From Lachnospiraceae bacterium (GTDB lineage: Bacteria > Bacillota > Clostridia > Lachnospirales > Lachnospiraceae), in NCBI GenBank assembly GCA_017938315.1, contig JAGBBV010000020.1, forward strand, positions 62,001-126,000: a stretch of 64,000 nt of DNA. Direction: 5' to 3'. This document shows, in pieces, positions 4,818 through 27,895 of the stretch. Both the position numbers and the translations under genes were made by a program. Below the pieces are notes generated by a model. It saw nothing but the letters and a program-made list of their open reading frames with translations. It made no database searches and had not been told where the DNA came from. How positions within the stretch are numbered: position 1 is the stretch's first letter; the number at the start of each line of letters is the position of its first letter.

Positions 4818-4823
4818 ATGGTC

Positions 4824-10418: not shown

Positions 10419-11807
10419 ATGGCACAATTATGGGGCGGTCGTTTTACAAAAGAGACAGACCAACTGGTTTATGATTTTAATGCATCAATTTCTTTTGATA
10501 AAAGACTTTTTGCTCAGGATATAGAAGGCAGCATTGCACATGTTGTTATGCTTGAAAAACAAGGGATTCTCACATGTGAAGAAAAGGATGCAATTGTAAA
10601 AGGGCTTACAAGCATCCGGAGCGATGTTGAAGAAGGGAAACTAAATATTTCCCATGAGTATGAGGATATTCACAGTTTTGTAGAAGCAAATCTGATAGAC
10701 AGAATAGGAGATGCGGGCAAAAAACTACATACCGGACGTAGCCGTAACGATCAGGTTGCACTTGATATGAAGCTATATGTGAGAAATGAAGTGGTTGCAG
10801 TCACTGAAGAATTAATAGACTTATTGGAATCACTTCTTGCTGTCATGGAAAACAATTTAAACACATATATGCCGGGCTTTACCCATCTGCAGAAGGCCCA
10901 ACCGACCACACTTTCTCATCATATGGGAGCATATTTTGAAATGTTTAAAAGAGATGTTCTTAGGATGCAGGATGTTTATAAAAGGATGAACTACTGTCCC
11001 CTTGGTTCGGGAGCTTTTGCGGGAACTACATATCCCCTTGACAGGGCATATAGTGCCTCTCTTTTAGGTTTTGAAGGTCCTACACTTAACAGTATGGATT
11101 CTGTTGCCGATAGGGATTACGTAATTGAATTTTTATCGGCATTATCAATAGTTATGATGCATTTGAGCAGATTTTCAGAGGAAGTTATTATTTGGAACTC
11201 CAATGAATATCGCTTTGTGGAAATAGATGATGCTTTCTCTACCGGTAGTAGCATCATGCCACAGAAAAAAAATCCTGATATTGCTGAACTTGTTAGAGGT
11301 AAAACAGGACGTGTGTATGGTGCCCTGGTATCTATTCTCACAACTATGAAGGGAATTCCTTTGGCATATAACAAAGATATGCAGGAAGATAAAGAAGTTA
11401 CCTTTGATGCAATTGATACTGTAAAAGATTGCCTGCACTTGTTTAATGGTATGTTAAAAACTATGAAGTTCAATACGAACATCATGGAAACAAGCGCAAT
11501 GCGCGGTTTTACCAATGCAACAGATGCGGCAGACTATCTTGTTAATCGAGGTGTTCCGTTCCGGGATGCTCATGGAATTATCGGACAACTTGTTTTGTAT
11601 TGCATTGATAAGGGGAAAGCAATTGATGAATTGTCAATTGAAGAACTGCAAGCAATCAGTCCTGTATTTGAGAATGATGTTTACGAAGCAATCAGTCTTA
11701 AAACATGCGTGGAAAAGAGGCTTACCATAGGCGCTCCAGGACAAAAAGTGATGGAAGAAGTTATTAAAATGAATAAAGAATTTTTAAATAGTCTCGGTCA
11801 AATGTAA
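10419..11807 (+). CDS. argH: Argininosuccinate lyase
   Basis: Splits argininosuccinate into arginine and fumarate, the last step of arginine synthesis. The 462-aa protein is of normal length and starts [14 protein letters not shown]. The fumarase/aspartase-family signature [15 protein letters not shown] lies near residues 276-290 and contains the catalytic serine loop. [12 protein letters not shown] binds substrate in the family. The start at 10419 has TGGAGGA nine bases upstream; an open frame reaching back to 10335 crosses the promoter and was not used. argG is not adjacent. Confidence 0.97.
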
Positions 11808-12948: not shown

Positions 12949-12967
12949 AAAATATTTGGGGTTACAA

Positions 12968-12990
12968 GCGGCCGGCAATAAGCCGGCTGC
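12968..12990. other. GC-rich hairpin between asd and the EAL gene
   Basis: GCCGGC at 12971-12976 and again at 12982-12987 form a self-complementary stem around AATAA, extended by three outer pairs (one G-U). No T-run follows, so it is not a standard terminator. It ends just before the AAGGGG ribosome binding site of the EAL gene and could affect mRNA processing or initiation. Confidence 0.5.
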
Positions 12991-13006
12991 TAAAAAGGGG
13001 TATAAG

Positions 13007-14731
13007 ATGGATGAATTACGTTATCAGGTAGATTTACTGAACGCGATGAATCAAAAACTTACGAATGACGAGAGAATGCTGCGGATGATATGTGAAACAT
13101 CAAGCAGTGCTTTTTTGTATGTCAATTTTAAAAATGATGAAGTGAGAATGATTGCAAACTGGGATTTCTTTTTCCCAAATGTTGAAATAAAAAGTATAAA
13201 AGATATGCCCAAACTCTTTTCGCAGATAGAAGAAGAGTATGCAGTTCCTTTAAGAGATTTACTTTATCTGGAAAGAACCGGTATTTCAACAGATACGGCA
13301 ATAGTGAAATTAATTGATGGAAAAACCTGGGTAGAATGTGAAGTCTCTGTTGTGTATGACAATACACAAAAACCCACAGATAAAATTATTCGTTTTAAAA
13401 ACATATCAAAAATTAAAAATCAAAACGATGAGCTGACGTATATGGCATATTATGATATGCTTACAGGTCTATTTAACAGAAATTATTTTGTCCGTTTACT
13501 TGCCGATTTTATAAGAAAGGCAGATGAGGAAAACCGTATTGTTGCGGTTATGTTTGTGGACATTGATGATTTCAGAAAAATAAATGATGGTCTGGGACTT
13601 GTAGTCGGTGACGAGGTTGTTCAACAGTTCGGGCAATTTTTGTCTGATTTCAAAAGTGAAAATATAATTGTTTCCCATTTTAATGCAGATATTTATTGTA
13701 TTGCCATTTTTGATCCCTGTGGGAACAGAAGTGTGGAATACATTTATAAAAAAATATATGAAAGAATCCGTTCGCCATTCTTTTTAAGTAATGGAATGGA
13801 AATTATGATATCAGTTTGTGTTGGTGTTGCAGAATATCCGGAAGCAACAAAATCCACTTTAGAACTGATTAATTGTGCTGAAATTGTAATGTTTAAAGCA
13901 AAAGGTGCAGGAAAAGATACCATTGAATATTTTGATGCACCCATTCTAAATGATTTTATACAGAATGTAACTATTGAAAATAAACTAAAAGAAGCGGTAT
14001 TTAATCAAAATTTCACATTAAATTTTCAGCCTCAATATTATACACATAACAAAAAGTTAAGAGGTGTTGAAGCGCTAATCAGATGGCGTGATGCTGATGG
14101 CATGATGATTAGTCCGTCGTTGTTTATTCCCATTGCTGAAAAGAACGGAACGATTGTCCCTATCGGTTCATGGGTCATTGAGGAGAGTATCAAAACCTTT
14201 GCAGAATGGAAGAAAGATTATAGTGATGATATGATACTTTCACTTAATATCTCTGCAATTCAATATAAAAGACAGGAATTTGTCACATCTATTTTAAGTA
14301 TTATAGAGAAATATAAGGTAAAACCGGAAGAAATTGAACTGGAAATTACCGAAAGCGTTTTGATTGATAATTTCCGGGAAGTAGTGGAAAAATTGCATAT
14401 TCTCAGGGAACATGGTATTAGAATTGCACTGGATGATTTTGGAACAGGCTATTCATCGTTATCATATTTAAAAGGACTTCCGATTAATACACTGAAGATA
14501 GATAAAGCATTTATTGACACGATGTTACAAGATGATAATGCAAAAATTATTATTGAGTCTATTATTTACATGGTAAAGAAATTAGGTTTTGAAACAATTG
14601 CCGAGGGCGTTGAGAATATGCAACAATTTGAATACTTGAAATCTATTGAATGTGATTGTATTCAAGGCTTTTTGATGGGAAAACCCATGCCGGATAAAGA
14701 AATTATGAAATTGTTGGATGAGTTAATTTAA
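13007..14731 (+). CDS. EAL c-di-GMP phosphodiesterase with degenerate GGDEF
   Basis: 574-aa soluble signalling protein. An N-terminal PAS-like region (about 20-140) precedes a GGDEF-fold domain (about 150-315) in which the signature is N226-ADIY instead of GGDEF, so cyclase activity is unlikely. The C-terminal EAL domain (about 325-574) keeps E355-A-L, the NIS and ELEITES segments, D476-D-F-G and E533-GVE, the residues that bind metal and substrate in active phosphodiesterases. Expected role: cleaving c-di-GMP, with the degenerate domain perhaps sensing GTP. The start at 13007 has AAGGGG upstream; an earlier in-frame ATG at 12956 is inside the hairpin region and has no site. It precedes an ATPase gene by 15 bases. 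Confidence 0.9.
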   Translation: MDELRYQVDLLNAMNQKLTNDERMLRMICETSSSAFLYVNFKNDEVRMIANWDFFFPNVEIKSIKDMPKLFSQIEEEYAVPLRDLLYLERTGISTDTAIVKLIDGKTWVECEVSVVYDNTQKPTDKIIRFKNISKIKNQNDELTYMAYYDMLTGLFNRNYFVRLLADFIRKADEENRIVAVMFVDIDDFRKINDGLGLVVGDEVVQQFGQFLSDFKSENIIVSHFNADIYCIAIFDPCGNRSVEYIYKKIYERIRSPFFLSNGMEIMISVCVGVAEYPEATKSTLELINCAEIVMFKAKGAGKDTIEYFDAPILNDFIQNVTIENKLKEAVFNQNFTLNFQPQYYTHNKKLRGVEALIRWRDADGMMISPSLFIPIAEKNGTIVPIGSWVIEESIKTFAEWKKDYSDDMILSLNISAIQYKRQEFVTSILSIIEKYKVKPEEIELEITESVLIDNFREVVEKLHILREHGIRIALDDFGTGYSSLSYLKGLPINTLKIDKAFIDTMLQDDNAKIIIESIIYMVKKLGFETIAEGVENMQQFEYLKSIECDCIQGFLMGKPMPDKEIMKLLDELI

Positions 14732-14746
14732 GCGGTGGAATAAAGA

Positions 14747-16114
14747 ATGATTTTAGGACGAGCACAGGAATTAAAATATCTGAATACATATTATGACCGG
14801 GAAGGCAGCCAGATATTAGTGGTCTATGGTGAAAAAAATATTGGAAAAACTGCTTTGATGAAACAGTTTGTACAAGATAAACCATGCCATTATTACCATG
14901 CCCGTTCCGCATCTGAAAGAGAACAACTTTATCAATGGGGAAAAGAACTTTCGGAGGATGAAATCCGGACATTAAAATATCCATCTTTTGGAGAATTGTT
15001 AAACGCGGTAGTAAAAGATGGACAAAATGGAAAAAAAGTAATTATTATTGATGAATTTCAATATATTGTAAAGGCAAGCGATACCTTTATGAAGGAATTA
15101 ATCACTGTCGTACACGATAGTTGGCGCAATTCCGAAGTGATGGTGATTTTATGTAGTTCTTCCATTGGATGGGTGGAAAACAGCATGATTAGTAAAATTG
15201 GTGAGGCTGCCTATGAACTATCCGGATTTTTGAAAGTAAAAGAGCTTGAGTTTGAAAATATGATGGAATTTTTCCCGGGTTTTAATTTCGAAAAATGCGT
15301 AGAGGCTTATGCCGTTCTTGGTGGAGTTCCCGGACTTTGGAGACACTTTAGCGACAAACTGAGCATTAAAGAAAATATTTGCAGGAATATTTTAAATCCG
15401 GATAAATTTCTGTATTCACAAGGGCAGAAAATTGTAGAAGAAGAACTTCGTGAAACTGGTGTATATAATACGATTCTTGCATCTATTGCTGCAGGAAACC
15501 ATAAGCTGAACGATTTATATTTGCATACAGAATTTTCCAGAGCTAAAATTAGTGTTTATTTAAAAAATTTAATGGAACTTGAACTTGTAGAGAAAGTTTT
15601 TTCCTATGACACAGAAGGAAAAGCAAATGTGCAAAAAGGTATTTACCGGATTAAGAATCATTTTGTACATTTCTATTTTACTTTTATGTATCCTAATTTA
15701 AGCCGGCTGGAAAATATGACAGTATTTGAATTTTATGGGAAATATATTGCTCCATATTTAAAAAATTATGTGGGTGAATATTATAAAACTGTTTGCAAGC
15801 AACGGGTTATGCAATGGAATAAGTGGGGAAAACTTCCCTTTGAGGCCGTTGAATTCGGAGAATGGGTTGGTAAATTTGGCAATATTGATATTATTGCACG
15901 TAGTGAACAGGGCGAGACCATTATAGGGCTATGTAATTTCGAAAAACCCATGATGCGTTATGATGATTATGAGTGGCTCTTATTTTGTGCAGAAAAGGCA
16001 AAGCTTAATGTTGATTACGTATATCTGTTTTCATCAAGCAGATTTGATGAAAAACTAAATTTGGAAGCCAAAGTTAAGCATAATTTAAAATTGATTACTA
16101 TGGATGAAATGTAA
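14747..16114 (+). CDS. Archaeal-type ATPase with DUF234 C-terminus
   Basis: 455-aa P-loop ATPase resembling the archaeal ATPase family (STAND/AAA-like) with a DUF234-type C-terminal region. Walker A is GEKNIGKTA near residues 28-36 and Walker B is VIIIDEFQY near 98-106. The middle (KLNDLYLHTEFSRAKISVYLKNLMEL) reads like a winged helix. The end (EFGEWVGKFGNIDIIARS) resembles a nuclease-fold core with a D-x-D pattern, though activity is not shown. The function of this family is poorly known; DNA binding is plausible. Its stop overlaps the topB start by one base (TAATG), a strong sign of coupled translation with topoisomerase III. Confidence 0.8.
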   Translation: MILGRAQELKYLNTYYDREGSQILVVYGEKNIGKTALMKQFVQDKPCHYYHARSASEREQLYQWGKELSEDEIRTLKYPSFGELLNAVVKDGQNGKKVIIIDEFQYIVKASDTFMKELITVVHDSWRNSEVMVILCSSSIGWVENSMISKIGEAAYELSGFLKVKELEFENMMEFFPGFNFEKCVEAYAVLGGVPGLWRHFSDKLSIKENICRNILNPDKFLYSQGQKIVEEELRETGVYNTILASIAAGNHKLNDLYLHTEFSRAKISVYLKNLMELELVEKVFSYDTEGKANVQKGIYRIKNHFVHFYFTFMYPNLSRLENMTVFEFYGKYIAPYLKNYVGEYYKTVCKQRVMQWNKWGKLPFEAVEFGEWVGKFGNIDIIARSEQGETIIGLCNFEKPMMRYDDYEWLLFCAEKAKLNVDYVYLFSSSRFDEKLNLEAKVKHNLKLITMDEM

Positions 16115-18147
16115 TGGGAAAAAGTCTATTTATTGCGGAGAAACCCAGCGTTGCAAGAGAATTTGCCAGGGTATTACAATTAAATACATCCAATAAAGAC
16201 GGATACATGGAATCTGAAAACGCTATTGTAACATGGTGTGTAGGACATTTGGTAACCATGAGTTATCCGGAAGCTTATGATGAGAAATATAAAAGATGGT
16301 CTCTTGATACTATTCCCTTTATTCCGGAAACTTTTAAGTATGAAGTAATTGAAAATGTAAAAAAACAATTTCAAATTGTAAGCGGATTATTGAATCGGGA
16401 AGATGTAGAGACCATTTATGTTTGCACTGACTCAGGACGGGAAGGTGAATATATCTATAGGCTTGTAGAGCAACAGGCTAATGTAAGAGGAAAAAACAGG
16501 AAACGTGTCTGGATTGATTCGCAGACGGAGGACGAAATCAAACGTGGTATCCGGGAAGCAAAGGATTTGTCGGAGTATGACAGTTTGAGTTCTGCAGCAT
16601 ATCTTAGGGCAAAAGAAGATTACCTTATGGGAATTAATTTTTCCAGAGTGCTTACTTTAAAATATGGTAACGGTATTAAAAATTTTTTAAAGAGAGACCG
16701 TGCGGTAGTTTCTGTTGGCCGTGTAATGACTTGCGTACTTGGCATCGTAGTGAAAAGAGAACGGGAAATTCGGGAGTTTGTAAAAACTCCTTTTTATAGA
16801 GTTCTCTTACAAACTAATATTAATGAAAGCAGTTTTGATGCGGAGTGGAAAGCCGTGCCGGAGTCAAAGTATGACAATTCTCCACTTTTATACAAAGAAA
16901 ACGGATTTAAAGAACAGCAGAGTGCACAGGCATTAATTGATTATTTAAAAGCAGAACCGGTAGAACCGCTTCTTGTGGATTCCATCGAAAAGAAAAAGGA
17001 AACCAAAAACGCGCCGCTTCTATATAATTTGGCCGAATTACAGAATGATTGTTCCAAGTATTTTAAAATAAGTCCGGATGAAACCCTTAGAATTGTACAG
17101 GAATTGTATGAAAAGAAAATGACTACATATCCCAGAACCGATGCCAGAGTTCTTTCAACAGCAGTGGCAAAGGAAATATACAAAAATATAAAAGGACTTA
17201 CGGGATATGGACTTGTGAGTGAATTTGCCAGTCATATATTAGAAAGTGGTGCATATAAAACAATTGTAAAATCAAGATATGTGAACGACAAACAAATTAC
17301 AGATCATTATGCAATTATTCCCACAGGGCAAGGTCTTAATAATTTAAACAATTTAAATCCTACAGCACTAAAAGTGTATGAAATAATTGCACGGCGTTTT
17401 TTGAGTATCTTTTATCCACCTGCAATTTATAGAAAAGTCAGTCTTACTGTTGCATTAAAAGGCGAAAAATTCTTTTCGAATTTTAAGGTGCTTGAAGATG
17501 AAGGTTATTTAAAGGTGAGTGCGTATTCCTTTGCTAAGAAGAAAAACGAAAAAAACAAAGATGCAGATGGAACAGAGAATGAAAATGCCGATAATGATAG
17601 TGAAGAAAAAGACTTCGGCAAAGAATTTATGGACAAGATAAATGAACTAAAAAAAGATTCACAGCTATCTGTTGATGATTTTCTCATAAAGGAAGGGGAA
17701 ACATCACCACCGAAAAGATATAATTCGGGAACGATGATTTTGACCATGGAAAATGCCGGACAGTTTATAGAGGATGAAGAACTTCGTGCCCAAATAAAAG
17801 GCAGTGGAATCGGTACTTCAGCGACAAGAGCAGAAATATTAAAAAAATTAATTAATATCGGTTATCTTGCGCTGAACAAGAAAACGCAGATTATCACACC
17901 TACCTTAATGGGCGAAATGATATATGAAGTAGTTGATAATTCCATTAGACCACTTCTTGATCCTGCTCTTACAGCCAGTTGGGAAAAAGGATTGACTATG
18001 GTGGCTGAAGGAACTATTACGGAAGATGAGTATATGAAAAAACTTGATGACTTTGTATCCAGAAGAACCAATATTGTTAAACAATTAAATAATCAGGGAA
18101 TATTAAATCAACGTTTTCAATATGCTTCAAAATATAATAAAACTTAA
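16114..18147 (+). CDS. topB: DNA topoisomerase III
   Basis: Type IA topoisomerase that breaks one strand to unlink or decatenate DNA. The 677-aa protein has an N-terminal TOPRIM domain (SLFIAEKPSVAREF, then the acidic VCTDSGREGEYIYR) and catalytic Tyr339 in MTTYPRTDARVL. It ends without zinc ribbons, as TopB enzymes of this group do. Residues about 470-515 form a very acidic, lysine-rich insertion (KNEKNKDADGTENENADN) that is probably disordered. Translation appears coupled to the ATPase gene upstream by the one-base overlap. Confidence 0.95.
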   Translation: MGKSLFIAEKPSVAREFARVLQLNTSNKDGYMESENAIVTWCVGHLVTMSYPEAYDEKYKRWSLDTIPFIPETFKYEVIENVKKQFQIVSGLLNREDVETIYVCTDSGREGEYIYRLVEQQANVRGKNRKRVWIDSQTEDEIKRGIREAKDLSEYDSLSSAAYLRAKEDYLMGINFSRVLTLKYGNGIKNFLKRDRAVVSVGRVMTCVLGIVVKREREIREFVKTPFYRVLLQTNINESSFDAEWKAVPESKYDNSPLLYKENGFKEQQSAQALIDYLKAEPVEPLLVDSIEKKKETKNAPLLYNLAELQNDCSKYFKISPDETLRIVQELYEKKMTTYPRTDARVLSTAVAKEIYKNIKGLTGYGLVSEFASHILESGAYKTIVKSRYVNDKQITDHYAIIPTGQGLNNLNNLNPTALKVYEIIARRFLSIFYPPAIYRKVSLTVALKGEKFFSNFKVLEDEGYLKVSAYSFAKKKNEKNKDADGTENENADNDSEEKDFGKEFMDKINELKKDSQLSVDDFLIKEGETSPPKRYNSGTMILTMENAGQFIEDEELRAQIKGSGIGTSATRAEILKKLINIGYLALNKKTQIITPTLMGEMIYEVVDNSIRPLLDPALTASWEKGLTMVAEGTITEDEYMKKLDDFVSRRTNIVKQLNNQGILNQRFQYASKYNKT

Positions 18148-18171
18148 AACGACTGTGAAAGGATGACGGAA

Positions 18172-18849
18172 ATGGAACAGTGTAAAATTAAAAATCTATA
18201 CAACTTAGATGAAACAATTGCTGCAGAACTTATGCTGCAGGCAGAATATCCATGGGAATTACTTCCCAAAATCAGCAATTACATTAAAGAACTGGGCAAA
18301 AAGCTTCCTAAAGATAAATATAAAGAGGTTTCTGAAAATGTATGGGTAGCGGTATCTGCAAAGGTGGCACCAACCGCATGTATTAACGGCCCGGCAATTA
18401 TTGATGAAGAAGCAGAAATCAGGCATTGTGCTTTTATTAGGGGAAATGCAATTGTGGGAAAGGGTGCTGTTGTTGGTAATTCAACAGAACTTAAAAATGT
18501 AATTTTATTTAACAAGGTGCAAGTGCCTCATTATAATTATGTTGGAGACAGTATTCTTGGATATAAAGCTCACATGGGAGCAGGTTCTATTACATCAAAT
18601 GTTAAGAGTGATAAGACCCTTGTGGTTGTAAAAGAAACAAATGCAAAGTTAGAAACAGGACTCAAAAAATTTGGTGCCATGTTAGGCGATAATGTGGAAG
18701 TGGGATGTAACAGTGTATTAAATCCCGGTACTGTTATAGGGCGAAATTCCAATGTTTATCCGACCTCTATGGTGCGTGGTGTAATACCTGCCGGAAGCAT
18801 TTATAAAAAGCAGGGAGAAATCGCGGAAAAATACGAAAAAAGTATTTAG
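18172..18849 (+). CDS. Left-handed beta-helix acyl/nucleotidyl-transferase-like protein
   Basis: 225-aa protein. After a helical start, residues about 70-205 show hexapeptide repeats ([LIV]-G-x4 type, for example AIVGKGAVVGNSTEL and GDNVEVGCNSVLNPGTVIG), the mark of a left-handed beta helix as in the C-terminal half of GlmU. No nucleotidyltransferase domain is present, so a sugar or acyl transferase, or a binding protein, is more likely than a full UDP-GlcNAc pyrophosphorylase. The start at 18172 was preferred because GAAAGGA lies eight bases upstream; the ATG at 18163 sits directly on this site. Last gene of the EAL-ATPase-topB run. Confidence 0.8.
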   Translation: MEQCKIKNLYNLDETIAAELMLQAEYPWELLPKISNYIKELGKKLPKDKYKEVSENVWVAVSAKVAPTACINGPAIIDEEAEIRHCAFIRGNAIVGKGAVVGNSTELKNVILFNKVQVPHYNYVGDSILGYKAHMGAGSITSNVKSDKTLVVVKETNAKLETGLKKFGAMLGDNVEVGCNSVLNPGTVIGRNSNVYPTSMVRGVIPAGSIYKKQGEIAEKYEKSI

Positions 18850-18918
18850 TGAATTTTTTGTCAAAAAGACTGGATTTTTTGCGAGATATATGCGAAAATA
18901 TAAGTCGTTATAAAACAG

Positions 18919-18936
18919 TTAACAATTTTTTGTTAA
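18919..18936. repeat. Inverted repeat upstream of the NifU-like gene
   Basis: TTAACAA at 18919-18925 and TTGTTAA at 18930-18936, a perfect 7-bp dyad around TTTT. It overlaps a possible weak promoter (TTAACA at 18919-18924, 16-base spacer, TATTAT at 18941-18946). It could be an operator, or a weak hairpin without a following T-run. Confidence 0.4.
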
Positions 18937-18971
18937 TAAATATTATCTACACAATTGAAAGGAGTTTTCAC

Positions 18972-19676
18972 ATGATTTATTCAAAAGAAGTTGAAGAAAT
19001 GTGTACAGTTGCCCAGGGTGTAAACCATGGTTGTGCACCTATCCCTGAAGAAGCAAAATGGGTAAAAGCAAAAGACGTTAAAGACATCTCCGGTCTTACA
19101 CATGGTATCGGTTGGTGTGCTCCTCAGCAGGGTGCCTGCAAACTGACATTAAATGTGAAAGAAGGTATCATTCAGGAAGCTTTGGTTGAAACCATTGGAT
19201 GTTCCGGTATGACTCATTCAGCTGCTATGGCATCTGAAATTTTACCTGGTAGAACTGTACTTGAAGCATTAAATACTGACCTTGTATGTGATGCTATCAA
19301 CACAGCAATGAGAGAATTATTCTTACAGATTGTTTACGGACGTACTCAGAGTGCTTTTTCTGAAGACGGACTTCCCGTAGGTGCAGGTCTTGAAGACTTA
19401 GGAAAGGGACTTCGTTCTCAGGTTGGTACTATGTACGGTACATTAAAGAAAGGTCCCCGTTACCTTGAAATGGCAGAAGGTTATGTAACAGGTATTGCAC
19501 TTGATGCTGATGACCAGATTATTGGTTACAAATTCGTAAGCCTTGGCAAGATGACAGACTTCATCAAGAAGGGTGATGATCCTACCACAGCTTGGGAAAA
19601 AGCAAGCGGACAGTACGGTAGAGTAGCAGACGCTGTTAAGATTATCGACCCCAGAACAGATGCAGAAGTTAAATAA
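18972..19676 (+). CDS. NifU/IscU-like scaffold protein paired with GGGtGRT protein
   Basis: 234-aa protein. Residues about 45-110 resemble the IscU/NifU N-terminal fold: KLTLNVKEGIIQEALVETIGC mirrors the IscU core and keeps the Cys of the GC motif (Cys77). The usual first ligand and its Asp are not aligned; nearby Cys49 and Cys56 flank the spot, and the canonical late HCS cysteine is absent. Further cysteines are 11, 21 and 106. It therefore looks like a divergent Fe-S or metal scaffold rather than a housekeeping IscU. The ATG at 18972 has AAAGGAG; the open frame back to 18849 was rejected. NNC codons (AAC, TAC, TTC, ATC) are frequent, as in highly expressed genes. It is followed after 23 bases by the GGGtGRT gene. 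Confidence 0.82.
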   Translation: MIYSKEVEEMCTVAQGVNHGCAPIPEEAKWVKAKDVKDISGLTHGIGWCAPQQGACKLTLNVKEGIIQEALVETIGCSGMTHSAAMASEILPGRTVLEALNTDLVCDAINTAMRELFLQIVYGRTQSAFSEDGLPVGAGLEDLGKGLRSQVGTMYGTLKKGPRYLEMAEGYVTGIALDADDQIIGYKFVSLGKMTDFIKKGDDPTTAWEKASGQYGRVADAVKIIDPRTDAEVK

Positions 19677-19699
19677 TAGAGAAGCGGAGGTAAAATATA

Positions 19700-20710
19700 A
19701 TGGCATTATTTGAATCTTATGAAAGACGAATTGAAAAAATCAATTCAGTATTAAATAGCTATGGTATCGCTTCTCTTGAAGAAGCTGAAAAAATTACAAA
19801 AGATGCAGGCTTAAATGTATACGATATGGTAAAAGGCATTCAGCCCATCTGTTTTGAGAACGCTTGCTGGGCATACATCACAGGTGCAGCAATCGCTATT
19901 AAGAAAGAATGTAGAAGAGCAGCTGACGCTGCTGCAGCAATCGGTGAAGGTCTTCAGGCTTTCTGTATTCCCGGTTCCGTTGCTGATACACGTAAGGTTG
20001 GTTTAGGACATGGTAACCTTGGCAAGATGCTCCTTGAAGAAGAAACAGAATGTTTCGCATTCTTAGCAGGTCATGAATCCTTTGCAGCTGCTGAAGGTGC
20101 TATTGGTATCGCAGAAAAGGCTAACAAGGTTCGTCAGAAACCCTTAAGAGTTATTTTGAACGGTCTTGGAAAAGATGCAGCTCAGATTATCGCAAGAATC
20201 AACGGCTTTACATTCGTCGAAACAGAATATGATCCTTACACAAATACTGTTAAGGAAGTATTCCGTAAATCTTATTCTGAAGGTCTTCGTGCAAAGGTTA
20301 ACTGCTACGGTGCAAACGACGTTTGTGAAGGTGTAGCTATCATGCACAAAGAAGGTGTAGACGTTTCCATCACAGGTAACTCCACCAACCCCACAAGATT
20401 CCAGCATCCTGTTGCAGGTACTTACAAGAAAGAATGTATAGAACAGGGCAAGAAGTACTTCTCCGTAGCATCCGGTGGTGGTACAGGCCGTACACTTCAT
20501 CCCGATAACATGGCTGCAGGTCCTGCTTCTTATGGTATGACAGATACTATGGGACGTATGCACTCTGATGCACAGTTTGCAGGTTCTTCATCTGTGCCCG
20601 CTCACGTAGAAATGATGGGACTTATAGGTGCAGGTAACAACCCTATGGTTGGTATGACTGTTGCAGTTGCAGTTGCTATCCAGGAAGCATCTGATTCCGG
20701 AAAGTTCTAA
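19700..20710 (+). CDS. GGGtGRT family protein
   Basis: 336-aa protein of the GGGtGRT family, named for a conserved motif seen here at residues 259-265 (S-GGGTGRT-LHPDN). The family has no established function that I know. Several cysteines are spread along it (PICFENACWAY, FCIPG, NCYGANDVCEG). The C-terminus is Gly/Ala/Met-rich (MMGLIGAGNNPMVGM) but not clearly membrane-spanning. The N-terminal half contains small-residue helices (AADAAAAIGEG). SD GCGGAGG lies at 19684-19690. Codon use is biased like that of abundant proteins. Close spacing with the NifU-like gene and a terminator right after mark a two-gene unit. Confidence 0.85.
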   Translation: MALFESYERRIEKINSVLNSYGIASLEEAEKITKDAGLNVYDMVKGIQPICFENACWAYITGAAIAIKKECRRAADAAAAIGEGLQAFCIPGSVADTRKVGLGHGNLGKMLLEEETECFAFLAGHESFAAAEGAIGIAEKANKVRQKPLRVILNGLGKDAAQIIARINGFTFVETEYDPYTNTVKEVFRKSYSEGLRAKVNCYGANDVCEGVAIMHKEGVDVSITGNSTNPTRFQHPVAGTYKKECIEQGKKYFSVASGGGTGRTLHPDNMAAGPASYGMTDTMGRMHSDAQFAGSSSVPAHVEMMGLIGAGNNPMVGMTVAVAVAIQEASDSGKF

Positions 20711-20732
20711 GACAATATTGATTAAATTGCCA

Positions 20733-20770
20733 AAAAGGGGAACGCTTTTGCATTCCCCTTTTAAAATTTT
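20733..20770 (+). terminator. Terminator after GGGtGRT gene
   Basis: AAAAGGGGAA at 20733-20742 pairs with TTCCCCTTTT at 20753-20762 around a 10-base loop, followed by AAAATTTTTT. It closes the NifU-like/GGGtGRT unit. Confidence 0.88.
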
Positions 20771-20786
20771 TTAGGAGCAGGAAAAC

Positions 20787-21731
20787 ATGAAAAAAGTAGT
20801 AGTATTCGGTGGTGGAACAGGTTTATCATGTCTTTTATCAGGCTTAAAACTCTTTCCCATAGATGTAACAACTATTATTACAGTAAGTGATAACGGAAGC
20901 AGTACGGGTGTACTTAAAGAAGAATTAGATATTCCGGCGGTTGGAGACGTTGGCAAGGTACTTCTTGCCATGGCAAATGGTGATGATGATTTGATAAAAT
21001 TACTTCGATACCGTTTTAATAAAACAGGAACCTTATATAATCATCCTGTACGAAATATTATTTTAGCAGCATTAATTGATTTGAAAGGAAATCTGACCGA
21101 AGCTACCAAATACATGTGCCAGTTATTAAACATAAAAGGAACTGTACTGCCTCTTACAGAGGAAAAAGTTGATCTTATAGGCAAAAGCAATGATAAAGAC
21201 TATTTTGGTGAAGAAGAAGTGAGTTTAAATATTAGAAATATTCGTAAACTTGCGTATGACCATGATATTCAAATAAGTGATGAAATAAAGAAAAAAATAG
21301 ATGAAGCCGATTTGATTATATTTAGTCCGGGAAGTTTATATACAAGCATTTTGCCTCATCTGATTTCCGGGGATATTTTAAACGCGATAGAGAATACATC
21401 TGCACCACTTATGTATATATCAAATTTAGTTACACAACCCGGTGAAACAGATGACTATAATGTCAGTGATCATATTAAAGTATTAAACCAGTATTTAAGA
21501 AATCGGAAAATTGATGTTGTTGTCGCAAACAATGCCGATATAGATAAACATGTCATTGATAAATATCTTACAACAGAAAACAAAAAGATAGTGTCCATTG
21601 ATAAGGATAAGCTGGAAAAACAAAATGTACGCGTTATTGAAGGAGATATTTTCTGCTTGGATAACGATGTGATAAGGCATGATGCACTAAAAACAGCATT
21701 TATTATATTTTCATATTTAATGGAGGGGTAA
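20787..21731 (+). CDS. yvcK: YvcK/GlmR family, UDP-sugar-binding regulator
   Basis: 314-aa CofD-like protein needed in Bacillus for growth on gluconeogenic carbon and normal cell shape, where YvcK binds UDP-GlcNAc and stimulates GlmS. Seen: the N-terminal KVVVFGGGTGLSCLLSGLK, the VSDNGSSTG loop, NHPVRN, and FSPGSLYTSILPHLI. In many Firmicutes it sits between rapZ and whiA; here neither neighbour is present. AGGAG lies at 20772-20776. It begins immediately beyond a terminator, so a promoter must lie in that terminator region or upstream; I could not identify one. Confidence 0.92.
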   Translation: MKKVVVFGGGTGLSCLLSGLKLFPIDVTTIITVSDNGSSTGVLKEELDIPAVGDVGKVLLAMANGDDDLIKLLRYRFNKTGTLYNHPVRNIILAALIDLKGNLTEATKYMCQLLNIKGTVLPLTEEKVDLIGKSNDKDYFGEEEVSLNIRNIRKLAYDHDIQISDEIKKKIDEADLIIFSPGSLYTSILPHLISGDILNAIENTSAPLMYISNLVTQPGETDDYNVSDHIKVLNQYLRNRKIDVVVANNADIDKHVIDKYLTTENKKIVSIDKDKLEKQNVRVIEGDIFCLDNDVIRHDALKTAFIIFSYLMEG

Positions 21732-21786
21732 TAGTCTGACAATTGCAACAATTCCACGGATTGCAGACGAAATGCTTGAAAATTAC

Positions 21787-21815
21787 TTGCGTATTTTCTC
21801 ACATCATGATATAGT
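21787..21815 (+). promoter_or_regulatory. Promoter of a leader upstream of the HD-GYP gene
   Basis: TTGCGT at 21787-21792, a 17-base spacer and TATAGT at 21810-21815. Transcription would start near 21822, giving a leader of about 130 bases before the ATG at 21951. Confidence 0.65.
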
Positions 21816-21892
21816 ATTATTATCAAATATCAAAAAAATGTGAACAAAAATGTGATTGGAAAGCGGACATTCCGTTTGATATTGATGTTTGG

Positions 21893-21926
21893 ACGGTAAA
21901 GGAAAATGATCCCTTTGCCGTTTTTT
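21893..21926 (+). terminator. Terminator-like hairpin in the leader of the HD-GYP gene
   Basis: ACGGTAAAGG at 21893-21902 pairs with CCTTTGCCGT at 21912-21921 (one G-U), followed by TTTTTT. A smaller hairpin precedes it (AAGCGGA at 21861-21867 with TCCGTTT at 21871-21877). It lies between a promoter and the gene, so it may be a regulated attenuator, or the end of a short RNA. I do not recognise a known riboswitch here. Confidence 0.75.
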
Positions 21927-21950
21927 GTTGTAAAAAATGAGGGTATTAGT

Positions 21951-23999
21951 ATGGCAAATGAAGAAAGAAAAAAAATTCTTGTAGTCGATGACGACCGATT
22001 GAGTTTGGTTGTTGCAGAGGAATTTTTAAAAGATGATTATGACGTTGATTGTGTTGATTCAGGAGAGGCAGCTCTTTTGTATCTGCAAAGCAATTATCCT
22101 GATGTAATATTATTAGATTTACATATGCCCGGAATGGGAGGTAGGGAGACATTGAATGTTATTATGTCTTCCAGCTTATTAAAGCATATACCTGTCATTT
22201 GCATCACAGCAGATTCCAAATCGGAAACAGAAATAGAGTGTCTTTCAATCGGCGCATTGGATTATATAACAAAACCTTTTGTGCCTCAGGTTGCTAAAAG
22301 CAGAATCAGCAGAATTGTTGAATTGAATGAACTTAAAAATAATTTAGCAGAACAGCTTGATAAAAAGACAAGGTTATTAGAAAAAGTTACGCTTAATTTT
22401 ATTATGGCAATTGCGAATACCATTGATGCAAAGGATGCTTATACATCAGGTCATTCTATAAGAGTAGCAAAATGTGCAGAGGCAATTGCTACGGAACTTG
22501 GATGGGATGATGAAGAAGTACAAAACATTAAGTACATAGCACTGCTTCATGATATAGGTAAGATTGGTATTCCTGATGCCATATTAAACAAACCGTATCA
22601 TTTATCTGTGGAAGAGTTTAATATTGTAAAAAAACATCCGATTATTGGTCGTGAAATATTAAAAGATATTCATATGATTGACAGTGTAACGGATGGTGCA
22701 TTGTATCACCATGAAAGATATGACGGGAATGGTTATCCCTTTGGTTTAAAAGGGAAAGAAATTCCACTTTGTGCCAGAATTGTTGGAATTGCAGATTCCT
22801 ATGATGCGATGACATCGAATCGTGTTTATCGTTCTAAATTAAAAAAAGAAGATGTGATATCGGAGTTTGAAAGATGTAAAGGTACGCAATTCGATCCTGA
22901 GCTTACTGAGCTATTCTTGAAAATGCTTAAGAGAGGTTTCTATGTACCTGAAGCAGATTATGAAGACAATCATGTTTTAGAAGAAGAAAATGGTTTAAAG
23001 GGTGAAGTTAACAGTTTACTTAGTAAAGTTTTGTCTGAATACACCGAAGAAGCAAAGAGAATTGCTATGAAAGATGCCCTTACGGGTCTATATAACAGAA
23101 GCTATGCTGAAACCACCTTGCCGGGAGTCCTAAAAGAAAATAATGTTTCAACACTTTTTATGATTGATATTAATAATTTTAGTGAAATTAATGAAATGTA
23201 TGGACATATTGCCGGTGACTTTGCATTGACAAGTTTTGCTGATAATGTAAAACAATGTATTAAAGAGGATGATATCCTGTGCCGTGTAGGAAAAGACCGG
23301 TTTGTTTTACTTGTAAAAGGTCTTCATAATAAGGATGAAATCAGGGGATTGGCGCAGAATATTTTGACAAAAACAACTGCCGGATTACGGGGCAATGTTT
23401 TTGGAAATATGGTTTTTGTCACAATCGGTATTGCAATTTATCCTGAAAATGGAAGCACCTATGAACTTTTATATGAAAATGCCGACAAAGCCAGTTATCA
23501 TTTAAAACGCAATGATAAAAGTGCATTTGAATTTTTTGAAGACGGTAAAGTGGAAATTGCCAATGTAACCATGACAGATATTAATCATATCCGTTCTATG
23601 ATAGAAGGGAAAGATTATAATTTCAATGGTGTATTCCATGTGGAATATGATGAATTTAAACGTATGTATAATTATATTGCACGTGGTGTTGTCAGAAATC
23701 ATCAAAGTGTTCAAACAGTACTTTTTACACTTGAAATTAACGATACTGCTTTGTATAGAAAAATGATTCCGGACGAGGCAATGAACGTTTTGGAAGCAGC
23801 CGTAGCATCTTCCCTTCGAATGGTGGATGTAGGAACCAGATACAGTAGTGTGCAATATATTGTAATTCTTTTAGATGCAGATTTTGAAAATGGTAAGAAA
23901 GTAGCACAAAGGGTTATGAATAAATTCTATAAGATGTATGCCAGAGGTGATGTTGATCTTTCCTATGACATTCAAACAATGTGTCCGAAAACGGTATAG
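21951..23999 (+). CDS. Response regulator with HD-GYP and two GGDEF-like domains
   Basis: 682-aa protein: REC domain (about 5-125; ILVVDDD and phospho-acceptor in ILLDLHMPGMGG), linker helix, HD-GYP phosphodiesterase domain (about 145-330; H200-D201 in LLHDIGKIG, H253-H-E-RYDGNGYP with G261-Y-P), then a GGDEF-fold domain (about 365-525) whose motif is G447-KDRF and so is degenerate. Residues about 555-682 read as a further cyclase-like fold (VLFTLEIN, then RYSSVQYIVILL in the GGDEF position) with no catalytic residues. Expected activity: phosphorylation-controlled c-di-GMP breakdown. The start at 21951 begins MANEERKK; an upstream in-frame ATG at 21906 lies in the terminator hairpin. No cognate histidine kinase is adjacent. 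Confidence 0.9.
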   Translation: MANEERKKILVVDDDRLSLVVAEEFLKDDYDVDCVDSGEAALLYLQSNYPDVILLDLHMPGMGGRETLNVIMSSSLLKHIPVICITADSKSETEIECLSIGALDYITKPFVPQVAKSRISRIVELNELKNNLAEQLDKKTRLLEKVTLNFIMAIANTIDAKDAYTSGHSIRVAKCAEAIATELGWDDEEVQNIKYIALLHDIGKIGIPDAILNKPYHLSVEEFNIVKKHPIIGREILKDIHMIDSVTDGALYHHERYDGNGYPFGLKGKEIPLCARIVGIADSYDAMTSNRVYRSKLKKEDVISEFERCKGTQFDPELTELFLKMLKRGFYVPEADYEDNHVLEEENGLKGEVNSLLSKVLSEYTEEAKRIAMKDALTGLYNRSYAETTLPGVLKENNVSTLFMIDINNFSEINEMYGHIAGDFALTSFADNVKQCIKEDDILCRVGKDRFVLLVKGLHNKDEIRGLAQNILTKTTAGLRGNVFGNMVFVTIGIAIYPENGSTYELLYENADKASYHLKRNDKSAFEFFEDGKVEIANVTMTDINHIRSMIEGKDYNFNGVFHVEYDEFKRMYNYIARGVVRNHQSVQTVLFTLEINDTALYRKMIPDEAMNVLEAAVASSLRMVDVGTRYSSVQYIVILLDADFENGKKVAQRVMNKFYKMYARGDVDLSYDIQTMCPKTV

Positions 24000-24060
24000 A
24001 CATTTATTTCTTTTTCCGTTAAAATATTTCGTGAATATATAGAATAAAAGAGGATATAAA

Positions 24061-24657
24061 ATGGACCAAATGAAATATTGCACTTCCTGTGGTGCTGAAA
24101 ATAAAATTGATTCAAAATTCTGTAGCAGCTGTGGTACTAAAATGGAGGAACCGTCCTTTGAGGATGAACTAGATATTCATTATGAAGATGAAACGGTGTA
24201 CAATAATGCAGAATTATTTGATGATTATTACGCATCAGCTTATACCGAAGTTGCCGAGGATTTCCAAAAGAGTGAACCGGAAAATAATTATGAGGTGACC
24301 GGCGTTTCTTTTGAAGAACCATATAAACAGCCTGTAGTAGCATCTGCTCCTAATTATTCAACGTATACATCAAACACGGCGACTGCTCCGGCAAAGACAA
24401 ATAATGGTGGAAATATAGGTTTTTCCATTGCATCTATGATATGCGGTATCTTTTCAATTATTTGTTGCTGTAGTGTATTTGGTTTTGTCACCGGTATTGT
24501 TGCGTTAATATTTGGTATCGTTACAGTGAAGTCTAATTTTGCAGGGAAAGGTATGGCAATTGCCGGTATTATAACAGGTGGAATTGGCATTTTCCTTTGG
24601 ATTGTATTTATGGTTATTGGTAGCTTTGGACTATTTTTAGAACTCCTTGAGTATTAA
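24061..24657 (+). CDS. Zinc-ribbon DUF4190-like membrane protein
   Basis: 198-aa protein. An N-terminal zinc ribbon uses Cys7, Cys10, Cys21 and Cys24 (CTSCG...CSSCG), then an acidic, Asn/Tyr-rich disordered stretch to about residue 115. Two C-terminal membrane segments (SIASMICGIFSIICCC..., and GMAIAGIITGGIGIFLWIVF) match the DUF4190 type. Function unknown; such proteins probably sense or tether at the membrane. SD AGAGG lies at 24049-24053. It is 61 bases after the response regulator and is closed by its own terminator. Confidence 0.85.
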   Translation: MDQMKYCTSCGAENKIDSKFCSSCGTKMEEPSFEDELDIHYEDETVYNNAELFDDYYASAYTEVAEDFQKSEPENNYEVTGVSFEEPYKQPVVASAPNYSTYTSNTATAPAKTNNGGNIGFSIASMICGIFSIICCCSVFGFVTGIVALIFGIVTVKSNFAGKGMAIAGIITGGIGIFLWIVFMVIGSFGLFLELLEY

Positions 24658-24662
24658 ATTCA

Positions 24663-24702
24663 AAACCCGTTTAAGAAAAAAACTTAAACGGGTTTATTTT
24701 TT
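24663..24702 (+). terminator. Bidirectional terminator
   Basis: AAACCCGTTTAAG at 24663-24675 pairs perfectly with CTTAAACGGGTTT at 24683-24695, followed by ATTTTTTT. It lies between converging genes and probably serves both. Confidence 0.92.
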
Positions 24703-24705
24703 TAT

Positions 24706-25236
24706 TTATTCAGTTTCCGAATCAACATCTGAACTTTCAGAGTCGTCTTCATAAGTATAAATTTCTTCAGGAATATCACCATGAAGTATCGAAACAATAT
24801 ATTGAATTCTTAAATTGGCACGATCATAATTTTGTTTAGCTACATCAGCTAAATTTGCGTCATAGGATTCAGAACCGAATGCCTGGTGGTAATAATACAC
24901 AGCTTCTGTCATATAGGAACTTGCTTCATCCGCTAATTCCTCGACACCAGGGAAACCTTCCGGCACGGTAAGAGATGCCATTTGTTCGAAAGTAGTATTC
25001 ATAGTATCTAATATAGTAAGCAAATCAGTAACTGCCGTTTCGGAATTAGGATCAATTGCATTAATAGAATCATCGAAGGTCTTAATATTTTCAAAGAACT
25101 GATTCATATTTGTTTTATAAGCTTCCAATTCAGGGTCTGTTTTGCATCCGGAAAATAATAAAGAACAAACGGAAACGGTTGTCAAGAGTAACGCCCTGAT
25201 TTTGCCGATAGATTTTCTTTCTGACTGTATATTCAA
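24706..25236 (-). CDS. Lipoprotein of unknown function
   Basis: 176-aa predicted lipoprotein. The N-terminus has basic residues, a hydrophobic stretch and lipobox LLFSGC, so the mature protein would start at Cys31, anchored outside the membrane. The rest is helical with many Thr/Asp/Glu and an acidic tail. I recognise no catalytic motif. The start is TTG (25234-25236 on the plus strand), chosen because AGGAGG stands seven bases upstream on the minus strand and the signal peptide then fits. It is divergent from metH and convergent with the zinc-ribbon gene. Confidence 0.8.
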   Translation of the reverse strand: MNIQSERKSIGKIRALLLTTVSVCSLLFSGCKTDPELEAYKTNMNQFFENIKTFDDSINAIDPNSETAVTDLLTILDTMNTTFEQMASLTVPEGFPGVEELADEASSYMTEAVYYYHQAFGSESYDANLADVAKQNYDRANLRIQYIVSILHGDIPEEIYTYEDDSESSDVDSETE

Positions 25237-25278
25237 AGTTATTCCTCCTAAAAAACCTTTTTTAAACCATATGTATAT

Positions 25279-25307
25279 AAATTATCATAGTTGCGAGATG
25301 AAATCAA
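25279..25307 (-). promoter_or_regulatory. Probable promoter of the lipoprotein gene
   Basis: On the minus strand, TTGATT (25302-25307), a 17-base spacer and TAATTT (25279-25284), about 42 bases before the TTG start. Confidence 0.5.
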
Positions 25308-25340
25308 GAAACAGATGTCGAAAAAGATATGATAGTTCAA

Positions 25341-25369
25341 TTGTAGTTTTGTTAAAATTATGTTAACAT
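25341..25369 (+). promoter_or_regulatory. Promoter of metH
   Basis: TTGTAG at 25341-25346, a 17-base spacer and TAACAT at 25364-25369. TGTTAA occurs at 25350-25355 and 25361-25366, eleven bases apart within this promoter. Confidence 0.6.
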
Positions 25370-25402
25370 GAAAAAATAGGTGAGTATATAGGTGGTATTG
25401 TT

Positions 25403-27895
25403 ATGAAACTTTATGATTTTCAAAAATTGACGGAAGATAACTTAATTTTTTTAGATGGTGCAACAGGTTCCAACTTAATTAAGCGCGGAATGCCTGCCGG
25501 TGTCTGTCCCGAAAAATGGATTTTAGAAAATAAAGATATCTTTGTAGAACTGCAAAAAGAGTATGTGGAGGCAGGAAGTAATATTATATATGCCCCCACC
25601 TTTACTGCTAACCGCATTAAATTAAAGGAATATGATCTTCATAAAGAACTTATAGAAATTAATACAGAGCTTGTTAAATTGTCCAAGATAGCGGCAGGTA
25701 AGTCAGCATATGTAGCCGCTGACATCACAATGACAGGTGAACAGCTTGCCCCTATGGGGAAAATGGATTTTGAAGAACTGATTTCTGTTTACAAAGAACA
25801 GATAGATGCTACATGCAAAGCCGGTGCAGATTTGATTATTGTAGAAACCATGATGAGTTTACAAGAAAGTAGAGCAGCACTGATTGCGGCAAAGGAAGTG
25901 TGTGATTTACCTGTAATGGTAACACTTACCTTTGAAAAAGACGGAAAAACTCTTTATGGTACAGATGCAGTAACTGCAGCAGTAACATTAGAAAAACTGG
26001 GAGCAGCTGCGGTTGGTGCCAATTGTTCTACCGGTCCGGATAAAATGGTAAATATAATTCGCAGCATTGCAGAGGCTGTTTCCATTCCGGTCATTGCAAA
26101 GCCCAATGCCGGACTTCCCTCGTTAAGCGAAGCAGGTGAAACTATTTATGATATGGACGAAACTACATTCGCAAAAGAAATGTTATGCATTGCAGAGGCC
26201 GGTGCAACAATATTAGGTGGCTGTTGCGGTACCGCACCGTCATATATTAAAGCGTTAACGGATATTTTCAATGGAAAAGAGAAAACATTTGTCAAAAAAA
26301 GAATGACGCAAATTGAAAAAGTTATCCATTCAGGTTATCGTTATCTTTGCAGTGAAAGAAAGACTGTCCGCTTTGGATTAAATGATCCTTTTATGATTGT
26401 AGGAGAGCGGATTAATCCTACAGGAAAAAAGAAATTACAGGAACAGCTCCGCCTGGGTAATTTGGAAATGATAATGGATTTTGCACAAGAACAAGAAGAA
26501 TGTGGGGCAAGCCTTCTTGATATCAATGTGGGAATGAGCGGTATTGATGAAAAAGAAATGATGCTTAAAGTGCTTGAAGAAGTTACATTGACATCATCCT
26601 TGCCATTAGTCCTTGATTCCAGTCATATTGATGTAATGGAGGCTGCATTACGGAGATATCCGGGCCGTGCTCTAATCAATTCTGTTTCTGCGGAGAAGGA
26701 AAAAATTGAAAAGATGCTTCCTCTTGCAAAAAAATATGGAGCAATGGTCATTTTACTTCCTTTATCTGATAAAGGATTGCCTGAAAATATAGAAGAAAAA
26801 ATTGATATTATAAACTATTTGTCTGAAAAAGCATTTTCGATAGGCCTTTCAAAAGAAGATTTGATAGTAGATGGCCTTGTTGCCACTGTAGGAGCTAATC
26901 CTGAAGCTGCAAAAGAAGTTCTTGCAGCAATTGCATACTGTAAAGAAAATGATTATGCCACAATATGCGGTCTGTCAAATATTTCATTTGGTTTACCGGA
27001 AAGAAGTTTTGTAAATACCGCTTTTTTAACTATGGCGATACAGACAGGACTGACTATGGCGATTGCAAATCCTTCACAGGATATGCTGGTCAATACGGCT
27101 TTTGCTGCTGATTTGCTCTTGAATAAAGAAGACGCGGATATCCGATATATTGAGCACATCCAAAACTATCAGGAACGCAAACCGTCAGTTACTTTGGCAA
27201 CTGCCGGCCTGGAAAAAAAGGATATAAAAAAAGAAGTATACCAAGATACACATCACAACAGTAAAAAACAAATATATATTGATGTTCTAAAAGGAAATAG
27301 AAAGCAAATAACAGAGCACACCAAGGCAGAACTTGATAGGGGAACAGATGCTTCTGAAATTTTAAATGAAATGTTAATGCCGGCCATTGATGAAGTGGGC
27401 AAGTTGTTTGACAGTGGAAAATATTTTTTACCCCAATTAATTGCAAGTGCCGAGAGTATGAAGCTATCCATTGAATATTTAGAGCCATATCTTGCCACTG
27501 GAAAAGAGCAGGACGAGATGCCTACAGTAGTTATTGCAACTGTAGAAGGTGATATTCATGATATTGGTAAAAATCTGGTTGCTATGATGATGAAAAACTA
27601 TGGTTTTAAAGTTATTGACCTTGGAAAAGATGTTTCCAGAGATGTTATTGTACAGACTGCAAAAGAAAATAACGCGTCCATCATCGCATTATCTGCATTA
27701 ATGACCACGACCATGCAGGAAATGAAACATGTGATTGAACATGCAAGAAAAGCAGGTGTGACATCCAAAGTAATGATAGGCGGTGCTGTTATTACAAATG
27801 ATTATGCGGAAGAAATCGGTGCAGATGGTTATTCAAGAGATGCAGCGGACGCTGTTAAAGTTGCCATGAAATTAGCAGGAATCACAGAAGAATAA
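25403..27895 (+). CDS. metH: Cobalamin-dependent methionine synthase without reactivation domain
   Basis: Transfers a methyl group from methyltetrahydrofolate to homocysteine through cobalamin. The 830-aa order is: homocysteine S-methyltransferase domain with zinc ligands Cys208, Cys274 and Cys275 (GANCSTGP, GGCCGT), pterin-binding domain (GERINPTGKKKL, about 330-600), cobalamin cap helices, and a B12-binding Rossmann domain with His719 in EGDIHDIGKN. The C-terminal S-adenosylmethionine reactivation domain of about 330 residues present in E. coli MetH is missing, as in several Clostridia. A separate reactivator may exist elsewhere. No cobalamin or SAM riboswitch is visible in the 166 bases upstream. 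Confidence 0.94.
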   Translation: MKLYDFQKLTEDNLIFLDGATGSNLIKRGMPAGVCPEKWILENKDIFVELQKEYVEAGSNIIYAPTFTANRIKLKEYDLHKELIEINTELVKLSKIAAGKSAYVAADITMTGEQLAPMGKMDFEELISVYKEQIDATCKAGADLIIVETMMSLQESRAALIAAKEVCDLPVMVTLTFEKDGKTLYGTDAVTAAVTLEKLGAAAVGANCSTGPDKMVNIIRSIAEAVSIPVIAKPNAGLPSLSEAGETIYDMDETTFAKEMLCIAEAGATILGGCCGTAPSYIKALTDIFNGKEKTFVKKRMTQIEKVIHSGYRYLCSERKTVRFGLNDPFMIVGERINPTGKKKLQEQLRLGNLEMIMDFAQEQEECGASLLDINVGMSGIDEKEMMLKVLEEVTLTSSLPLVLDSSHIDVMEAALRRYPGRALINSVSAEKEKIEKMLPLAKKYGAMVILLPLSDKGLPENIEEKIDIINYLSEKAFSIGLSKEDLIVDGLVATVGANPEAAKEVLAAIAYCKENDYATICGLSNISFGLPERSFVNTAFLTMAIQTGLTMAIANPSQDMLVNTAFAADLLLNKEDADIRYIEHIQNYQERKPSVTLATAGLEKKDIKKEVYQDTHHNSKKQIYIDVLKGNRKQITEHTKAELDRGTDASEILNEMLMPAIDEVGKLFDSGKYFLPQLIASAESMKLSIEYLEPYLATGKEQDEMPTVVIATVEGDIHDIGKNLVAMMMKNYGFKVIDLGKDVSRDVIVQTAKENNASIIALSALMTTTMQEMKHVIEHARKAGVTSKVMIGGAVITNDYAEEIGADGYSRDAADAVKVAMKLAGITEE

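Follow-up and report, generated by a model that had tools for sequence, protein, structure and literature searches.

A diverged IscU-like protein and a GGGtGRT family protein form a gene pair that lies behind fluoride riboswitches in some relatives

Introduction

Proteins of the GGGtGRT family (PF14057) are known by name, as is a NifU-like neighbour of theirs, and are reported to be highly expressed in several gut anaerobes, yet the published work on which we draw, in excerpt throughout, states no role for the family, and our sequence searches gave no solved relative. Here we describe one such gene and its neighbour in a 64,000-nucleotide stretch of a Lachnospiraceae bacterium (assembly GCA_017938315.1, contig JAGBBV010000020.1, positions 62,001 to 126,000; hereafter, the window). 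The two genes are as follows.

18972..19676, plus strand: gene 1, "NifUx", ATG to stop, encoding a diverged IscU-like protein of 234 residues
19700..20710, plus strand: gene 2, encoding the GGGtGRT protein (PF14057), ATG to stop, 336 residues

The closest described systems are the IscU/NifU N-terminal domain (PF01592), SufU (TIGR01994) and, for the regulation found in relatives of the pair, a riboswitch operon of E. cloacae FRM. NifUx resembles the IscU/NifU domain in the core around the cysteine of its Gly-Cys motif (Cys77) and in the helix that follows, and differs from it in lacking the Cys-Gly-Asp (CGD) and His-Cys-Ser (HCS) motifs, in its extra C-terminal part and in its pairing with GGGtGRT. 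SufU matches the same NifU_N stretch of NifUx weakly, at 17.2 bits, far under its cut-off of 92.5. The E. cloacae operon, ppaC-uspA-eno-gpmA-crcB (PMC5533749), has the same riboswitch class, fluoride, as some relatives of the pair, where Fluc or a CLC-F antiporter accompanies it; NifU and IscU are absent from the main text of that paper. The excerpts of PMC11139923 do not mention NifU, and the crcB passages of PMC2864571 name neither gene of the pair.

In the open literature we found no link of GGGtGRT to fluoride or of IscU or NifU to the fluoride riboswitch, and a mention in Baker et al. (2012) is possible. The reciprocal pairing of the two genes, the non-standard invariant ligand set of NifUx and the riboswitches are apparently new, being undescribed in the excerpts of related literature. 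The pairing, the iron response and the riboswitches in two clades together provide a first concrete lead on function; if fluoride or iron does alter the action of the pair, it would constitute a new class among the functions protected by fluoride switches.

Reciprocal pairing of NifUx and GGGtGRT

NifUx and GGGtGRT are, with near certainty, a true gene pair. Among 249 genomes of the phylum, PF14057 was detected in 16 (17 copies), and precisely these 16 also gave 17 strong hits to the NifUx profile. The least significant of the 17 has E = 9e-122; the match ranked after it (2e-8) covers only a short part of another protein. Were the two genes independent, the odds of this co-occurrence would be about 1.6e-25. 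Co-occurrence had been proposed as a check in the first-pass annotation of this DNA, and the attempt to refute the pair by finding its members apart failed. Of the loci L001-L113, which include the window's own copy, 109 of 113 have NifUx ahead of GGGtGRT in the same orientation, with a gap mostly of <70 bases and at most 263; the other four are cut by contig ends, with 0-46 bases of upstream sequence. All 13 further loci carry the pair, in one of them (L149) in decayed form. In the class of genome G089, both genes are present in 9 of 12 loci, and the remaining three (L161, L162 and L164) are GGGtGRT fragments without NifUx, which were excluded from the pairing counts and included in the 62-locus riboswitch count given below.

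The distribution is patchy. A larger draw gave PF14057 in 29 of 398 genomes, and the classes of G186, G089 and G125 hold it in 1/10, 11/82 and 1/4 genomes, respectively; the pair was also found in Parabacteroides, Bacteroides, Phocaeicola, Persicobacter, Collinsella, Subdoligranulum and Vibrio. Across 57 loci, the NifUx tree is congruent with that of GGGtGRT (patristic correlation 0.86), and named phyla are intermingled in the joint tree; from these phylogenies, the pair seems to move horizontally as one unit.

Individual loci show departures from the simple arrangement. In L005, a GA-cis RNA (RF02987, 67.8 bits, positions 1391-1473) occupies the gap between the genes. In L104, from Parabacteroides, the gap contains an open reading frame (ORF) of 63 residues annotated as hypothetical (4800-4991), and TlpA, OsmC and a nitroreductase are neighbours. 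The decayed locus L149 (1080-1510, genome G341) was considered as a natural NifUx-GGGtGRT fusion and rejected: both genes are broken, and a deletion has fused the mid-part of NifUx with the beginning of GGGtGRT. In L047, some 3.6 kb downstream of the pair, there is a RAGATH-18 RNA (RF03064, 69.9 bits, 10596-10668).

The ligand set of NifUx and the GGGtGRT protein

Pfam NifU_N (PF01592) matches NifUx at E = 8.3e-4 and 19.9 bits, under its curated cut-off of 22, and matches all 25 NifUx members weakly (best E 7e-6). A profile of 25 NifUx relatives matches ISCU and NifU structures over residues 43-112 (E ~7e-5), so that kinship with IscU is credible from sequence comparison at a score short of the PF01592 family cut-off. 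In an alignment with the host's own NifU, which has CGD, the corresponding place in NifUx reads QQG; the HCS motif is absent, and Cys106 stands earlier. All 28 diverse NifUx sequences compared, the window's included, have His44, Cys49, Cys77 (in the Gly-Cys core) and Cys106, and 25 of them have Cys56. The C-terminal ~105 residues gave no family match, and their reading as a second IscU copy was rejected (profile comparison probability 0.7 percent, E = 0.078, 23 columns).

These comparisons agree with the first-pass annotation, in which an IscU-like core with Cys77 had been recognized without the usual first ligand motif and HCS, and Cys49 and Cys56 had been named as stand-ins. Its ligand list stands for Cys49, Cys56 and Cys77, and left the invariant Cys106 unnamed; the check it had suggested, for a standard IscU ligand set, returned a non-standard one, which does not refute its reading. 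It had further held that the pair is not a housekeeping Isc system. The host has its own NifS-like and NifU genes side by side on another contig, and NifUx is therefore distinct from the housekeeping iron–sulfur (Fe–S) scaffold. The reported lack of an adjacent cysteine desulfurase also holds, as none was recognized by eye among the ORFs at 12000-28000, where no family search was made.

Gene 2 matches PF14057 over its full length (629.8 bits against a cut-off of 27, E = 1.1e-189, model positions 1-327 of 327), confirming its assignment to the GGGtGRT family, and full-length copies are 58-96% identical to the window's protein, with long invariant blocks. Across 24 diverse sequences no cysteine is invariant. 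The invariant residues include His104, His125, Glu126, Lys158, Asp159, Asn227, Asn230, Arg233, His236, Arg264, Asp269 and His302 (an incomplete list), and Pfam searches returned nothing beyond chance apart from the family itself, with weak matches in 1 or 2 of the 24 members. Because no cysteine is invariant, GGGtGRT is unlikely to be a client whose cluster is bound through conserved cysteines, and the "scaffold and client" relationship proposed earlier is conjectural.

Fluoride riboswitches and exporters in relatives

The first-pass annotation missed the fluoride riboswitches of relatives. Inspection of upstream regions had pointed to fluoride aptamers, and an Rfam scan of 62 loci confirmed RF01734 in nine, each time with a score over the gathering threshold and with the aptamer preceding the pair in its own orientation (L013/L130, L015/L131, L014/L132, L107, L108, L110, L156/L165, L157/L166 and L159/L170). 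This number is a floor, as the upstream flank is shorter than 1 kb in many loci and longer stretches were needed to reveal two of the nine; a regex scan for the aptamer missed some that Rfam found (e.g. L107, L108 and L132), and its silence elsewhere was not counted. The aptamer directly precedes NifUx in six loci (L013/L130, L015/L131, L107, L110, L156/L165 and L157/L166). In the others, the genes between aptamer and NifUx are a CLC gene ending 466 bases before NifUx (L108), a TauE-family gene (L014/L132), and a series of Fluc, DUF190 and an MFS gene (L159/L170).

Fluoride exporters often accompany the pair. The match of the L108 CLC to a solved fluoride/proton antiporter of the CLC type is at 3.6e-68; its best match to any other CLC is at 5e-8. 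Fluc (PF02537) is in line with the pair after GGGtGRT in L130, L131, L132 and L169 (the last without a riboswitch) and before NifUx in L170 and L171, and L166 has Fluc and DUF190 on the opposite strand. In four of six folded leaders (L013, L015, L108 and L170), the conserved 3' end of the aptamer is paired within a strong hairpin (z at or below -4.5), and in L013 and L015 a T run comes after the hairpin; a terminator overlapping the aptamer has been read as ligand induction (PMC2864571, in excerpt). As a separate observation, L130 has a second fluoride aptamer (5515-5576, minus strand) overlapping the end of a DUF190 gene located after its Fluc genes.

The riboswitch copies fall into two separate clades of the joint tree: the first (support 100) belongs to the window's phylum, and the second (support 93) comprises Persicobacter and Vibrio. 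In three of the five genomes of the 249 that have both pair and riboswitch (G089, G125 and G186), the two lie within 2 kb of each other, for which the chance is 1.6e-7 in a test that was framed after the link had been seen. Each of these three has one PF14057 match, and the only pair found stands behind the riboswitch; it would therefore serve fluoride conditions there rather than back up a second copy. The placement of riboswitches at relatives' pairs very likely reflects function. It is specific, yet the pair is not confined to riboswitch carriers. Bacteroides ihuae, a control genome, has both PF14057 and RF01734, as genome-level presence only, and the one CLC of the window's host matches fluoride antiporter structures best (E = 1.3e-52).

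Codon usage and iron response

Both genes prefer NNC codons, as had been noted. Of the AAY, TAY, TTY, CAY and GAY codons, 19/33 (0.58) end in C in NifUx and 32/59 (0.54) in GGGtGRT. These are the two highest values among the 50 window ORFs that have 150 codons or more, against 774/3935 (0.197) in the other 48 (Fisher p = 2e-6 and 6e-9, respectively). Together with the high in vivo expression of GGGtGRT in Bacteroides, Megamonas, M. elsdenii, S. hippei and Blautia, described in the excerpts of PMC11204068, this bias suggests that both proteins are probably abundant in the host, in line with the first-pass annotation. GGGtGRT is also listed in a rumen metaproteome (PMC7035244).

Expression in other species responds to iron. 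In B. thetaiotaomicron, BT0173-BT0174 (GGGtGRT and NifU) changed by -12.8 to -11 fold under iron depletion (PMC10434189). In C. pasteurianum, iron excess raised GGGtGRT 7.1-fold at the early and 2.2-fold at the late stage, with values for the NifU spots of 2.4 and 3.7 (early) and 1.6 and 2.9 (late) (PMC5395762); the close locus tags F502_05012 and F502_05017 suggest that the two genes are adjacent there. The iron-dependent expression in these two species lends indirect support to a metal role for the pair.

Proposed role of the pair and alternatives

The explanation we favour, at slightly less than an even chance, is that NifUx and GGGtGRT are the two proteins of one iron-dependent enzyme module, for which some bacteria have a greater need under fluoride. 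The ligand set His44, Cys49, Cys77 and Cys106 would hold iron or an Fe–S centre, and from these conserved residues NifUx rather probably carries a metal. GGGtGRT would be the larger, enzyme-like partner, using the NifUx centre or binding iron through its invariant His, Glu and Asp residues. A joint enzyme, as opposed to general Fe–S assembly, has about an even chance from the sequences, and we prefer it to a scaffold feeding a client because GGGtGRT has no invariant cysteines. With ample iron, some anaerobes would produce large amounts of the pair, and in the riboswitch lineages, of which there are at least two, its reaction would be demanded more as cytosolic fluoride rises, being most likely either an iron-dependent step inhibited by fluoride or a substitute for a Mg-dependent step that fluoride blocks. 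The reaction would then be useful across anaerobic metabolism and critical once fluoride blocks another route. That the step is fluoride-sensitive or bypasses fluoride is a tentative proposal, about which we are more doubtful than confident; that the window's riboswitch-less copy performs the same chemistry is likely. A wider version, in which GGGtGRT is a fluoride-tolerance enzyme wherever it is present and gut anaerobes lacking the riboswitch use the same reaction in ordinary fermentation, appears unlikely.

A number of results weigh against an iron enzyme linked to fluoride. Metal binding and enzyme activity of GGGtGRT are guesses, since it has no invariant cysteine and no solved relative (searches of the PDB by sequence gave nothing beyond chance, with a best E of 0.7), and the iron data are limited to two other species. 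In the 249 genomes, scanned for riboswitches with stricter filters, any fluoride riboswitch is present in 5/16 carriers of the pair and in 93/233 others (Fisher p = 0.60); a genome-level association of the pair with riboswitch presence was thus rejected. No in-line aptamer was seen in 53 of the 62 loci scanned (with short flanks in many), among them all 10 loci of the genome-contig set that have >2 kb of upstream sequence; L167 and L168, which belong to the same Bacillota clade as riboswitch copies, also showed none (the label Bacillota is presumptive for the G genomes). The window's own pair (L001) has no RF01734 upstream, and neither RF01734 nor Fluc was found in the host genome. Among the loci that do support the link, the aptamer match of L171 has only 25 bits, under the gathering score, the leader hairpin is weaker in L110 (z -2.5) and no different from shuffles in L107 (z -0.7), and it is not certain that the CLC gene and NifUx of L108 are on one transcript.

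Four other explanations could account for part of this evidence. NifUx could be a scaffold dedicated to building clusters for GGGtGRT or another client, raised because fluoride damages Fe–S proteins, a minority possibility to which we nevertheless give some weight: it would suit the IscU-like core with its three invariant cysteines and His44, the iron-dependent expression reported for other species, and a Collinsella pair that has a SufD-SufS-SufU set 1.9 kb away, on the far side of a transposase gene. Such a scaffold would have to operate without the CGD and HCS motifs and for a partner without an invariant cysteine, and no desulfurase was recognized by eye near the window's pair, in a host with its own NifS-NifU. 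The same expression data, with more protein made in iron excess, would also fit an abundant store of iron or iron sulfide that fills when iron is plentiful and buffers it when fluoride disturbs the metal balance, and the codon bias and reported high expression are as such a sink would predict; the conservation of GGGtGRT, with identities of 58-96% and long invariant blocks, is more like catalysis than a simple sink, and we consider storage improbable.

The loci that combine riboswitch and exporters, along with the probable abundance of the proteins, would be consistent with the pair itself binding or removing fluoride as a primary defence, for instance as a metal-fluoride trap. This is quite improbable, given the large majority of scanned loci without an in-line riboswitch (many with short flanks) and a reported expression that tracks iron. 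There is an equally small likelihood that the link to fluoride arose as a side effect of gene traffic, with the pair caught by chance in a fluoride island: the mixing of named phyla in the joint tree makes the pair seem horizontally mobile, and genomes with the pair are not enriched in the riboswitch, but the two separate clades, the several gene orders and the aptamers directly before NifUx in most of the nine loci speak against chance capture.

Locus layout in the window and mobile-element observations

Around the two genes, the window has the following signals.

18870..18899, plus strand: promoter-like stretch, CTGGAT, 18 bases ending TGC, then GAAAAT; putative, from comparison by eye with the upstream regions of relatives
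18908..18925, plus strand: Rex-like palindrome TTATAAAACAGTTAACAA, with 2 mismatches to TTGTTAANNNNTTAACAA, after the presumed -10
18958..18964, plus strand: putative ribosome binding site of gene 1, AAAGGAG, from sequence
19684..19690, plus strand: putative ribosome binding site of gene 2, GCGGAGG, from sequence
20733..20762, plus strand: intrinsic terminator stem followed by a T-rich run, from folding

The description of two genes 23 bases apart and closed by a terminator proved right in its coordinates: the hairpin folds at -17.2 kcal/mol (z -3.34), with 2 of 200 shuffles equally good. A simple pattern scanner gave no terminator there, and the promoter-like stretch is absent from the output of a consensus scanner. 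The GTG at 18849, given as the start of gene 1 in the ORF list, is a mechanical extension and was rejected in favour of the ATG at 18972.

The palindrome was scored against TTGTTAANNNNTTAACAA, which we take to be the Rex consensus. Sites with three or fewer mismatches to this consensus occur in 24 of 76 upstream regions, against a mean of 4.0 and a maximum of 9 in 60 shuffled runs, the regions being nearly all from the genome-contig set and the shuffles ignoring shared ancestry. In the window taken by itself, sites of this kind are no rarer than expected by chance (4 found, 1.67 expected). The enrichment in relatives hints at a possible redox control of the pair. The box overlaps an inverted repeat before gene 1, TTAACAATTTTTTGTTAA, which was rejected as a conserved operator, as by eye it was not seen in relatives. 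The preceding topoisomerase-like and acyltransferase-like genes, named from sequence, recur in 27 and 28 of 102 compared loci, respectively, a recurrence that looks like synteny by descent.

Finally, mobile elements appear to attach repeatedly at the 3' end of the GGGtGRT gene. The Phocaeicola record L111 has a second copy of the last ~55 GGGtGRT codons (5817-5981 and 8125-8286), and viral contigs carry lone copies of the 3' end (L126:5001-5165; L121/L127), with a recombinase-like ORF, named by eye, at 5546-6763 of L126. Integrase genes lie 0.1-1.4 kb downstream in L025, L029, L037, L044, L048, L057, L084, L098 and L101; the L101 integrase matches PF00589 at 1.3e-13, and the other eight were found as its tblastn relatives.
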